A DNA stretch of 64,000 bases from the NCBI RefSeq assembly GCF_009663465.1, contig NZ_QXHU01000001.1, positions 1-64,000 of the forward strand, given 5' to 3'. The DNA comes from Riemerella anatipestifer (GTDB lineage: Bacteria; Bacteroidota; Bacteroidia; Flavobacteriales; Weeksellaceae). Positions 6,371 to 62,922 of this stretch are shown here, piece after piece. The position numbers and the translations under genes were made by a program. The first letter of the stretch is position 1; each line of letters starts with the position of its first letter. Under the pieces are notes generated by a model that was not told the origin of the DNA, made no database searches, and saw nothing but the letters and a program-made list of their open reading frames with translations.

Positions 6371-6862
6371 ATGAGCATTACGGATTTAAACAACACGCAT
6401 CTGACAGAGCCACAAATGGAAGCCATAAAACAGGCGCTAACGGCTTTGGAAACGGCGATGGCAAGTCTTCAAGTGAACCTAACACCGGAGGAGAGAAACC
6501 GCTATGGGCGGGTGAATGAGCAAAACAAACTCTTTGTGGGGAAAGTGAATGAATACGCCCTGTCCGAACCAGCCTTGCGTTCGCAGGATGTGGATTGGGA
6601 CGAGTTTGCCAAAGATTTTAAGAGCCGGAACTTTTTGGAAGGCATCATCAACCGGCTCAACAGCCTTTCTACCCGTGCCAACAATGCCAAGACGCTTCAC
6701 GATTACGATAACTATCAGGACGCTTTGGCGGATTACGCTTACACCTCGTTCCGTGTGGGGTCTAAAGCGGTGGGCTTCGAGGATAAGCATAAGGAATTAA
6801 AACAATTCTTCAAACGCCGGAACAGAAACACGACAGTAGAGCCCCCTAAAGAGGGTGAATAA
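6371..6862 (+). CDS. Conserved hypothetical protein, all-helical
   Basis: 163 residues from the ATG at 6371 (MSITDLNNTHLTEPQ). An in-frame TTG at 6332 would start inside the lysS terminator, so I prefer 6371. No signal peptide or membrane segment; sequence favours helices (AIKQALTALETAMASL, GIINRLNSLSTRANNA). The pattern NEQNKLFVGKVNEY and VDWDEFAKDFKSRNFLE resembles small uncharacterised proteins I associate with Flavobacteriia, but I cannot name a family or function. GC content is higher than in the core genes around it. A variant -7 box, TATCTTCG (6335-6342), lies 28 nt upstream. A strong terminator follows, then the 21-bp repeat array. Confidence 0.7.
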   Translation: MSITDLNNTHLTEPQMEAIKQALTALETAMASLQVNLTPEERNRYGRVNEQNKLFVGKVNEYALSEPALRSQDVDWDEFAKDFKSRNFLEGIINRLNSLSTRANNAKTLHDYDNYQDALADYAYTSFRVGSKAVGFEDKHKELKQFFKRRNRNTTVEPPKEGE

Positions 6863-6877
6863 TCCCAATCTTACCCC

Positions 6878-6928
6878 AAAAAAGCACCTTAACGAACCTT
6901 TACACAAGCGTTAAGGTGTTTTTTTTAT
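6878..6928 (+). terminator. Terminator after the 6371-6862 gene
   Basis: CACCTTAACG (6885-6894) pairs with CGTTAAGGTG (6909-6918) across a 14-nt loop, with A-run before and T8 after. Confidence 0.85.
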
Positions 6929-6959: not shown

Positions 6960-7240
6960 GAAAATATCCTGAAAACAACCCAAAATATGACCTCAGAGGT
7001 GTGTCGGAAGCCCTTTTTGAAAAAAAATATGACCTCCGAGGTCCAAAATATAACCTCGGAGGTTCAAAATAGCTCCTCAAAGGTCTAAAATACTACCCCG
7101 AAGGTCAAAAACCGTATCAAAAAGGTCTTCCGGAGCTTCAAAAAGGTCTTTGGAACCTTTAAAAGGCTATCCCTAAGCCTTAAAACTCTCCGCTGGAGGA
7201 TTAAAAAGAGCTTCGGAAGGGGAAAATAAGGTTCCGGAGT
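6960..7240. repeat. Degenerate 21-bp-periodic intergenic array (locus 1)
   Basis: From 6960 the sequence can be cut into 13 consecutive 21-bp units (starts 6960, 6981, 7002, 7023, 7044 and so on to 7212) without any indel. Units starting 6981, 7023, 7044, 7065 and 7086 share an A-rich block AAAATA followed by ACC...GAGGT or a relative of it. In three of them the core is an inverted repeat: ACCTC-a-GAGGT, GACCTC-c-GAGGTC and AACCTC-g-GAGGTT. Later units drift to a second type, around CGGAAG...TTAAAA, that keeps the register. There is no long ORF. It fills the gap between a terminator and the YD-repeat gene at 7288. Confidence 0.8.
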
Positions 7241-7287: not shown

Positions 7288-8034
7288 ATGAAAAGCCTAT
7301 TTTTATTCACGCTGTCCCTGCTGGTTTTTTCGCTTTGCAACGGACAGGAACAGCAAAATAGAACCAATTGGAAAGAATTTAATTTAAAAGAAAAGGTAAA
7401 ATATCTAAGCGAAATCACTTACGATGTCGTGGAAGAAAACGGAACCCTGCAAAAGGGAAATCTAAAAGACCATTTAGAATATCGTTTTCACGAACAAGGT
7501 CATAAAGTGGAAGAAATTTGGTATAGATTAGATAATAGCTCTTTAAAATGGACTTATAAGTACGATTCTGTGAGAAAACGAATAGAGGCGTGTGCTACTC
7601 CTGATGATTATTTCTTTACGTATAAATATGATGAACAAAGTAACAAAACAGAAGTAAATAAATATATAGATGGTATTTGGGTATGGGAAGAAAGGTTTAA
7701 ATACGATACGCAAAATAATCTAATAGAAGCCATTATCTTTCACTTAGGGGATTTATATGGCCAAAAAAACTACCAATACGATGCCCAAGGCAACCGGATA
7801 GAAGTGAATACTTATGTGCCGGACGGTAGCCTATACAATAAGAAAGTTTATAGATATGATGAGAAAGGAAACGAAATAGAGGTGAAAACCTATAATTCAT
7901 ACGGACGTTTAGAAAGTAAACAGGCTTATCAATACCAATACGATAAGCAAGGGAACTGGATTAAAAAGACAGAGTATGAAGACAATAAACCTATACAAAT
8001 CACTGAACGGGAAATCCAATATTATCAAAATTAA
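7288..8034 (+). CDS. Secreted YD-repeat-like protein, copy 1
   Basis: 248 residues. The N-terminal signal peptide MKSLFLFTLSLLVFSLCNGQ predicts export; the Cys lacks a good lipobox (L at -1), so signal peptidase I cleavage near Gly-Gln is more likely than lipidation. The body repeats a unit of about 20-22 residues of the form Y-x-YD-xx-G/S-N-x-x-E-x-x-x-Y, like the YD/RHS-type and WXXGXW-like short repeats that build beta-rich surfaces. Function unknown. It is the first of three tandem paralogues: the first 36 bases and the junction TAAAATCCAATGAAAAG recur at the next two copies. A -7-like TATCTTTA lies at 7252-7259. Confidence 0.75.
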   Translation: MKSLFLFTLSLLVFSLCNGQEQQNRTNWKEFNLKEKVKYLSEITYDVVEENGTLQKGNLKDHLEYRFHEQGHKVEEIWYRLDNSSLKWTYKYDSVRKRIEACATPDDYFFTYKYDEQSNKTEVNKYIDGIWVWEERFKYDTQNNLIEAIIFHLGDLYGQKNYQYDAQGNRIEVNTYVPDGSLYNKKVYRYDEKGNEIEVKTYNSYGRLESKQAYQYQYDKQGNWIKKTEYEDNKPIQITEREIQYYQN

Positions 8035-8040
8035 AATCCA

Positions 8041-9117
8041 ATGAAAAGTCTATTTTTATTCACGCTGTCCCTGCTGGCTTTGTCGCTTTGCAACGGACAG
8101 GAACAACAAAAGAAAACCGATGTACAGGAATTAGGGCTGAACGCAACAGTAAAACGGGTAAAAGAAATGGCTTACAACGCTAAAAAACAGAATGAGGCGA
8201 TAGAAAAGAATCCGTTCGGTGGTATAGAAGAGCATCTGTTTGATGAACAAGGCCGCCGAATAGAACAAAATGACTATAACTTGGACGGTGGTTTGTCTCG
8301 CCGGTACACTTATCAGTATGACCATAAAGGCCACTTAACGGAAGATAATGAGTATAATTCGGACGGCAGTTTAAACATGAAGAGGACTTACCAATACGAT
8401 GAGGAAGGCCGTCAAACAGAGATGATAATATACAACTCGGAAAAAAGCAACAAGGCTACTTATAAATATGACGATAAGGGCCGCCTGATAGAGAAGAATA
8501 GTTATGATGAAGGGGGAAATTTAGATTGGAAAACCATTTGTGAATACGACGATAAAGTCCATCGGATAGAGGAGAATCATTATAACGCATGGGGGGATTT
8601 TGTTAGTAAGTACATTTATCAATATGATGAAAAAGGAAAACTAATGGAAGAGAAAGAGTATGACTCACACAATAAGTTATACAAAAGGTGCACTTATCAA
8701 TACGACAGCAAAGGCAATGAAATAGAGGTAAAGGAATATTATGCATACGGTATAGCACATAGTTGGACTTATCAATACGACGAAAAAGGAAACAAAATAG
8801 AAGAAAAAGGCTATGCCGGGAACGGCAGTCTAAGTTATAAGGAAACTTTTAAGTATGACCATAAAGGGCATTTAATAGAAAAGAACTTTCATTACTCAGA
8901 AGATCGTTTATATTATAGAATGACCTATCAGTATGATGACCATGGTAATCTGACAGAAGAGTGTAAAATTGACGGTTCAGGCGGAGATAAACAGTGTAGA
9001 ATTTATCAGTACGAGTACGATAAGCAAGGGAACTGGGTTAAAAAGTCAGAATATGGAAACGATGAGCCTACGATACAAACCCTCATCGAACGGGAAATCG
9101 AATACCATCAAAACTAA
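8041..9117 (+). CDS. Secreted YD-repeat-like protein, copy 2 (paralogue)
   Basis: 358 residues, starting 6 bp after the copy 1 stop codon, so the two are probably cotranscribed. The signal peptide is almost identical to copy 1 (MKSLFLFTLSLLALSLCNGQ). The mature part has more repeat units than copy 1, about 13 of roughly 21 residues with YQYDEKGN or YKYDDKGR cores, and both proteins end alike (YDKQGNWVKK...IERE). The length difference therefore reflects gain or loss of repeat units. Likely exported; role unknown. Such repeats are found in RHS/YD proteins, but no toxin or core RHS domain is visible here. Confidence 0.75.
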   Translation: MKSLFLFTLSLLALSLCNGQEQQKKTDVQELGLNATVKRVKEMAYNAKKQNEAIEKNPFGGIEEHLFDEQGRRIEQNDYNLDGGLSRRYTYQYDHKGHLTEDNEYNSDGSLNMKRTYQYDEEGRQTEMIIYNSEKSNKATYKYDDKGRLIEKNSYDEGGNLDWKTICEYDDKVHRIEENHYNAWGDFVSKYIYQYDEKGKLMEEKEYDSHNKLYKRCTYQYDSKGNEIEVKEYYAYGIAHSWTYQYDEKGNKIEEKGYAGNGSLSYKETFKYDHKGHLIEKNFHYSEDRLYYRMTYQYDDHGNLTEECKIDGSGGDKQCRIYQYEYDKQGNWVKKSEYGNDEPTIQTLIEREIEYHQN

Positions 9118-9123
9118 AATCCA

Positions 9124-9306
9124 ATGAAAAGCCTATTTTTATTCACACTGTCCCTGCTGGCTTTGTCACAGACAGGAAAAGCAAACCGATTGGGAAAAGA
9201 TGAATTTGAAAGGAAAAGTGAAAATAATACGAGGATAGCCTTACAAGGCGATAGATGAAAAGGAAGTGATACAAAAAAGGAAGATGATTTATCATATAGC
9301 TAAATA
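9124..9306 (+). pseudogene. Third copy of the YD-repeat gene, frameshifted and truncated
   Basis: The first 45 bases repeat the start of copies 1 and 2, and the junction TAAAATCCAATGAAAAG is present at 9115-9131. After LLALS a short deletion removes the LCN codons and shifts the frame. In the shifted frame RQEKQTDWEKMNLKGKVKII still resembles copy 1 (QEQQNRTNWKEFNLKEKVKY), then stops come at about 9238 and 9304. The remaining gene body is missing. Confidence 0.75.
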
Positions 9307-39875: not shown

Positions 39876-40309
39876 TATAGGTTGTGGGTTCAAAAATAGA
39901 CCCTAGAGGGAGTAATATTGAGGTTGCAGGGTTAAAATTAGAGATTATAGGTTCAAAAACAGACCCTAAAGGGAGTAATATTGAGGTTGCAGGGTTAAAA
40001 TTAGAGGTTGTAGGTTCAAAAATAGACCCTAAAGGGAGTAATATTGAGGTTGTAGGGTTAAAATTAGAGGTTGTGGGTTCAAAAATAGACCCTAGAGGGA
40101 GTAATGTTGAGGTTGCAGGGTTAAAATTAGAGGTTGTAGGTTCAAAAATAGACCCTAGAGGGAGTAATATTGAGGTTGCAGGGTTAAAATTAGAGGTTGT
40201 AGGTTCAAAAATAGACCCTAGAGGGAGTAATGTTGAGGTTGTAGGGTTAAAATTAGAGGTTGTGGGTTCAAAAATAGACCCTAAAGGGAGTAATGTTGAG
40301 GTTGCAGGG
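39876..40309. repeat. Tandem 63-bp (3 x 21 bp) intergenic array (locus 2)
   Basis: Six complete and one partial 63-bp copies start at 39887, 39950, 40013, 40076, 40139, 40202 and 40265, with no indel. Each copy consists of three related 21-bp subunits: one with GGTTCAAAAATAGACCC, one with GGGAGTAATATTGAGGTTG, one with GGGTTAAAATTAGAGGTTG. Copies differ at only about nine positions, and all differences are transitions (A/G or C/T). The period is a multiple of three, so ORFs on both strands pass through it; these are not evidence of coding. A terminator-like hairpin follows at 40337. Confidence 0.92.
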
Positions 40310-40336
40310 TTTGCAGAGCGTTGGTGCATCAATAAT

Positions 40337-62754: not shown

Positions 62755-62922
62755 AAAGGCTCGTAGGAATACAAAAATGGTAATGAGGAACACAAAAACC
62801 GCCGTGAGGAATACAATAAAGGCTTGTAGGAATACAAGAATGACCGTGAGGAATAGAAGAATGATTGTGAGGAGCTCATTATTTTAATGAGGAATTAAAA
62901 AACAGCTTTGAGGAATAGGAGA
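62755..62922. repeat. 21-bp-periodic intergenic array (locus 3)
   Basis: Eight consecutive 21-bp units (starts 62755, 62776, 62797, 62818, 62839, 62860, 62881, 62902) with no indel. Most units carry TGAGGAA or GTAGGAA at the same columns (about 9-15), followed by TACAA or a relative, and begin with AATG. One unit reads AATGACCGTGAGGAATAGAA. It lies between the divergent lipoprotein and E1 dehydrogenase genes, about 78 bp from the lipoprotein start and 235 bp from the E1 start. Confidence 0.85.

Follow-up and report, generated by a model that had tools for sequence, protein, structure and literature searches.

What keeps a run of intergenic repeats in step while their sequence drifts? The question is raised by positions 6960 to 7240 of the window, which in this text means the whole stretch analysed, 64,000 nucleotides of the Riemerella anatipestifer contig NZ_QXHU01000001.1. 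The original prediction had described thirteen 21-bp units in exact register there and had noted that in three of them the arms of a short dyad change together. It took this for a two-fold protein site or an RNA hairpin, with a spacing that matters.

Array 1 and its neighbours

The following features make up the locus:

6371..6862, + strand: gene of the 'hyp6371' family, 163 aa, without a Pfam family, predicted to be all-helical with a basic C-terminal tail (ORF, profile search and models)
about 6885..6926, + strand: intrinsic terminator between the hyp6371 gene and array 1, stem CACCTTAACG/CGTTAAGGTG followed by a T-run (sequence)
6960..7238, no strand: array 1, about 13 units of 21 bp in exact register (sequence and lag scan)
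7005..7132, no strand: gapless imperfect palindrome of 128 bp, centre 7068.5 (inverted-repeat score and shuffles)
7288..8034, + strand: next gene, encoding a secreted RHS/YD-repeat protein (ORF and profile search)

Array 1 is the downstream part of a gene-terminator-array unit. It is placed between the hyp6371 terminator and the RHS/YD-repeat gene, and the ORFs beside it are lysS, hyp6371 and the RHS-like gene. The encoded LysS shares up to 85% identity with LysS of Chryseobacterium. The window continues with consecutive secreted RHS/YD-like genes (7288-9164), whose 41-bp start is near-identical (95%) at 7288, 8041 and 9124.

The exact register was borne out. Thirteen 21-bp steps lead from 6960 to 7232, and identity over 6960-7240 amounts to 0.55 at lag 21, compared with 0.16-0.36 at lags 15-20 and 22-27. 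The lag-21 log-odds segment at 7024-7238 scores 38.1. All genome-wide lag counts rest on a 364-kb sample, consisting of the window and fifteen 20-kb stretches of the same genome; here we found eight strong segments at lag 21 and seven at lag 22, with 0-4 at each of the other lags and a top score of 20.3 outside lags 21 and 22. The genome holds no other strong copy of array 1, the next best match having an E-value of 0.3.

The three dyads are present exactly as originally written, ACCTC-a-GAGGT at 6981, GACCTC-c-GAGGTC at 7023 and AACCTC-g-GAGGTT at 7044. The unit at 7002-7022 is an inverted copy (CGGAAGCCCTTTTTGA) that has a mirror partner at about 7117-7132; its orientation and this partner led us to reject a decayed direct copy. 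Local dyad centres fall at 7037, 7047.5, 7058 and 7068.5, and from there on in the other phase, at 7151, 7172, 7193 and 7235. Because the dyads occupy two phases, the unit-level signal of array 1 alone is not significant when folded on one phase (p=0.43 in one test, p=0.15 in another), and a single base-pair swap among three units is thus insufficient evidence on its own. Covariation within single 21-bp arrays was null against column shuffles. The 128-bp palindrome scores 64 (column-permuted arrays, 24 +- 6.3) and depends on the order of the units (z=3.8 against unit-order shuffles). Folded as RNA and compared with dinucleotide shuffles, array 1 gives a z of -5.7 for the gene strand and -4.35 for the opposite strand.

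The hyp6371 protein has no Pfam family at E<=0.001, where only sub-cutoff chance matches appear, and no NCBIfam or PHROG family either. We found no homologue among solved structures or in phage, plasmid (72,556 plasmids) and viral-contig collections. The protein is probably all-helical, judging from helical models of low confidence (pLDDT 60 for the single-sequence and 47 for the two-sequence model). YciF/Dps-like four-helix proteins match the model with Z about 6, the level expected for helical bundles, and we therefore neither claim nor exclude a fold family. The family is multi-copy, with five copies in this genome, and its distribution is patchy: relatives occur in 23 of 99 related genomes, in 31 of 392 sampled across the phylum and in 65 of 393 of the order.

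Linkage, period and symmetry across loci

Linkage was examined in 103 testable, non-redundant hyp6371 relatives across the Bacteroidota, calling an array when a segment at lags 21, 22, 42-44 or 63-66 scored >=10 within 600 bp of the gene. Such an array follows 85 of the 103 genes, compared with 12/102 upstream and 4/103 at control lags; these are counts of genes and do not equal counts of independent events. Among 772 control ORFs from 80 lysS loci, array lags gave 27 calls and control lags 25. By lag, the downstream counts were 67 (lag 21), 16 (22), 60 (42), 24 (43), 52 (63) and 18 (64). These counts put the step mostly between 21 and 21.5 bp, which corresponds to two turns of B-DNA, and the view that spacing matters holds across the gene family, at a period of 21-22.

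Seven codons also make 21 bp, so the arrays could encode a repeat protein or once have done so. Some arrays are indeed open in one frame, and array 2 of the window reads GSKIDPRGSNIEVAGLKLEVV. However, the best frame of array 1 has an in-frame stop, the array lies beyond the terminator, and many arrays in the same gene setting advance by 22, 43 or 64, which no reading frame survives. Heptad coding is thus refuted as a general account, and what is left of it has a negligible probability.

Gene and array also occur apart. No array was detectable at eighteen of the 103 genes, and some arrays lie away from any hyp6371 gene; we found no hyp6371 remnants beside five such arrays, namely arrays 2 and 3 of the window and three others. 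Array 2 (39879-40311) consists of seven 63-bp (3x21) copies, has significant unit dyad symmetry (p=0.003) and is open in one frame. Array 3 (62765-62920, period 21) lies between divergent genes, and its dyad is not significant (p=0.59). At L031:12828-14085 in Tenacibaculum aiptasiae we noticed three blocks of identical 30-bp repeats.

The genes that follow hyp6371-linked arrays are diverse, and homology between related genomes breaks off abruptly where the array stops on its 3' side in L126/L156 and L149/L168, as if the next gene had been swapped. Together with the patchy occurrence of hyp6371, this could point to a structured single-stranded recombination site similar to integron attC, which folds back after a gene, varies in sequence while keeping its structure and marks the joins of cassettes. 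Many regularly spaced units in place of one attC, and a terminator as well at most loci, make this very improbable.

We next turn to the symmetry of the units. Sixty-one period-21 arrays were aligned by rotation only, with column-permuted arrays as the null. The pooled profile holds 3.64 bits of information per unit (null, 1.87 +- 0.05), and none of the columns in the pooled consensus rises above 0.39 bit. The alternation of A/T and G/C peaks at 10.5 bp. The common frame has two dyad centres 10.5 bp apart, with a complementarity of 0.40 as against about 0.25 at most other centres. Across the 61 loci the dyad arms covary (z about 14, compared with -4 to +3 at other centres), and all ten base pairs of the 21-bp dyad contribute positively. 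In a set thinned to 29 arrays whose proteins are <60% identical, z is 8.6 and 8.2 at the dyad centres and at most 1.8 at every other centre. Taken individually, 50 of the 61 arrays show dyad symmetry at p<0.05, and 11 of the 14 most diverged arrays have significant dyads. Since the unit sequences of distant loci are unrelated and the arms covary across loci, each locus has its own palindrome, while symmetry and spacing are common to all.

Symmetry extends to whole arrays. Compared with unit-order shuffles, the whole-array inverted repeat of 59 arrays has a mean z of 0.99 (Stouffer 7.6; 13 arrays with p<0.05), and among the strongest cases listed it is mostly centred close to the midpoint of the array. 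The picture is of a gene-plus-array cassette, widespread in the Bacteroidota, with some 6-25 mirror-symmetric units per array.

The period-22 arrays of this genome led to a second protein family, HU-HIG (PF18291), with 23 matches in the 2.3-Mb genome, many of them followed by 22-bp palindromic arrays. Among non-redundant HU-HIG genes, 20/29 are followed and 9/30 preceded by an array, with 22 as the main lag, and the dyads of these arrays covary with z about 9. The architecture is that of the hyp6371 cassette, but the protein is of another family, an HU-type DNA-binding protein, and the step is 22 bp. The ratio of lag 21 to lag 22 is 67:16 for hyp6371 and 3:15 for HU-HIG (Fisher p=5e-7), so that the length of the step seems to depend on which protein family is present. 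Some HU-HIG genes lie <800 bp from contig ends (C21:210-590, C22:210-590, C23:385-765), which suggests repeats that break the assembly. Chains of 22-bp palindromes, such as AAAACCTGCGCAGGTTTT, were also seen at L120:6444-6707, L125:7517-7778 and L132:579-757, where the flanking ORFs listed include neither HU-HIG nor hyp6371.

Turnover of the arrays and the level at which they may act

The gap downstream of lysS is not syntenic in the five relatives from the genus, so orthologous arrays were compared via the linked hyp6371 gene. This gave 37 pairs, some sharing a member, with aligned arrays 70-98% identical. In strict alignments, 15 of the 43 in-array gaps measure 20-22 nt and one 105 nt (5x21), and the other large group is 13 gaps of a single nucleotide; the unit-step gaps support the view that spacing matters. 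A looser aligner produced many small paired gaps, which is why the gap spectrum has to be read as dependent on alignment settings; we rely on the strict alignments. Several pairs at 77-90% identity have no indel or a single one of 21 nt: L148/L150 differ by 61 substitutions and one 21-nt gap, and L234/L238 by 37 substitutions and no gap. Arrays become less alike as their proteins diverge, and at 55-65% protein identity their similarity is close to background. That units become unrecognisable at this distance argues against a fixed sequence-specific site.

In the local dyads, compensatory changes between orthologs are not enriched (5 seen, about 7 expected). Positions paired over the whole array substitute less often (0.160 vs 0.223 overall), and double changes number 75, of which 36 are compensatory, against about 45 expected; because these counts take each pair in both directions, they are modest evidence. 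The arms of the dyads thus change together across loci and in the fold-back of the whole array, as the original prediction had proposed for array 1, but not at unit level in array 1 alone or in the local dyads of orthologs.

It is conceivable that period and symmetry are purely mutational and kept by drift. A palindromic founder would be multiplied by 21-bp slippage or unit duplication and turned back on itself by fold-back template switching, perhaps provoked by the protein. Unit-step indels, fast turnover of the sequence, the inverted unit at 7002 and the missing compensatory excess in local dyads would all agree with an unselected by-product. This account does not sit well with a linkage to one gene family that persists across many families of the phylum despite full replacement of the array sequences, with a period that depends on the protein family, or with the lower substitution rate at paired positions. 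We regard it as improbable.

If the arrays are under selection, they might act as DNA or as RNA. A terminator-like hairpin separates gene and array at 54 of 81 loci, and the -7-type promoter motif TAnnTTTG stands before the array at one of 81 and after it at 21; most arrays are therefore outside the gene's transcript. Many also lie between convergent genes. These placements weigh against a transcribed array, whether reached by read-through or started from a promoter that escaped recognition. Its RNA would form a long, rod-like hairpin, paired in blocks at 21-nt intervals, and would be bound by the adjacent protein as a scaffold or sponge. An Rfam search of the window, moreover, returned tRNAs only and no match for array 1. 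Such an RNA would account for the folding of the arrays, which is far better than that of column-permuted arrays on both strands and slightly better on the gene strand, as well as for the excess of double changes, although good folding of both strands also speaks for the DNA level. It would also fit the surplus of G.U over A.C mismatches on the gene strand (ratio 1.19, CI 1.04-1.35), which recurs among single changes between orthologs (114 vs 77, counted in both directions and uncorrected for composition). However, strand-biased mutation, from C to T, could be the source of the G.U excess and of the better folding of the gene strand. The mirror order of whole arrays is a further point for RNA, and it counts against a reading by shape on DNA, since independent protein sites do not need it. 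Overall we consider the RNA reading rather unlikely, and the sequence evidence leans towards arrays that would act at the DNA level. The two-fold symmetry that the original prediction saw is real across the gene family; it may reflect either of the two things that it offered, a protein site or an RNA hairpin.

Around the observed linkage, period, symmetry, cross-locus covariation and unit-step indels, the reading that we favour runs as follows. The adjacent protein, probably as a dimer, would bind its own array by shape and not by a fixed sequence, recognising either dyads on one helix face or hairpins or cruciforms extruded from the dyads. A regular nucleoprotein structure could then assemble on the DNA that separates the terminator from the following gene and would be left untranscribed, possibly serving local chromosome architecture or insulation. 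The sequence of an array is private to its locus and turns over fast, with the geometry kept: an exact period, two-fold units and often a mirror-symmetric whole. That the adjacent protein has in the array a nucleic-acid partner defined by its shape, including binding and oligomerisation, we infer from sequence patterns and hold to be plausible, somewhat short of an even chance.

Comparison with known systems

Plasmid iterons are arrays of ~19-22 bp repeats on the same helix face beside a replication-initiator gene, with one conserved sequence per replicon. They share with the cassette a protein gene adjoining an array of similar repeat length. In contrast, hyp6371 arrays have private palindromic units, and their gene lacks a Rep domain and any homologue in the 72,556 plasmids. 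An iteron-type origin was rejected for array 1, where no initiator gene is adjacent (no Pfam, NCBIfam or PHROG family) and the units are ~55% identical rather than near-identical. The centromere-like sites parS and parC combine the gene of a binding protein with its own arrayed two-fold sites and a locus-private specificity. Here, none of the ORFs flanking array 1 encodes a partition ATPase or GTPase, and there are several hyp6371 cassettes per chromosome; a ParABS or ParMRC locus was rejected at the array 1 locus, which has no ATPase or filament gene among lysS, hyp6371 and the RHS-like gene.

The type III toxin-antitoxin system ToxIN brings together the gene of a ~165-aa protein, a terminator and an array of repeats of about 35 nt. 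In the hyp6371 cassette the order is gene, terminator, array, the units are of ~21 nt and diverged, and there is no toxin domain. With arrays downstream rather than upstream and a protein without family match, we rejected this assignment. CRISPR was rejected too, as diverged head-to-tail units without spacers are present and Cas9 profile matches are at chance level (14 bits, NCBIfam cut-off 399). REP/BIME elements with RAYT transposases are short intergenic palindromes with tagged sequences in common (PMC3733652). The likeness ends with the short intergenic palindromes: hyp6371 arrays are regular and have no common sequence, and their gene matches no transposase family. A genome-wide tagged palindrome is absent (next best copy at E 0.3, pooled columns <=0.39 bit), and REP/BIME was therefore rejected. 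We found no description of such arrays in the open-access literature; a survey of prokaryote satellites mentions repeat families, with these arrays not among them in the portion of the survey that we consulted (PMC6749651).

With close to even confidence, we propose a Bacteroidota-wide two-part system consisting of a protein and a private downstream array, which may have been built at least twice, with a 21-bp step for hyp6371 and a 22-bp step for HU-HIG. The inherited information would be geometric (two-turn spacing, two-fold units and fold-back symmetry), with the sequence freely replaced. What looks like a degenerate intergenic satellite would become a recurring, testable gene-plus-array unit in many families of a very common bacterial phylum, tied to one protein family that has no name and to another, HU-HIG, an expanded family of DNA-binding proteins. 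If this is true, spacing and symmetry, and not sequence, are the conserved trait, one that ordinary sequence searches miss.
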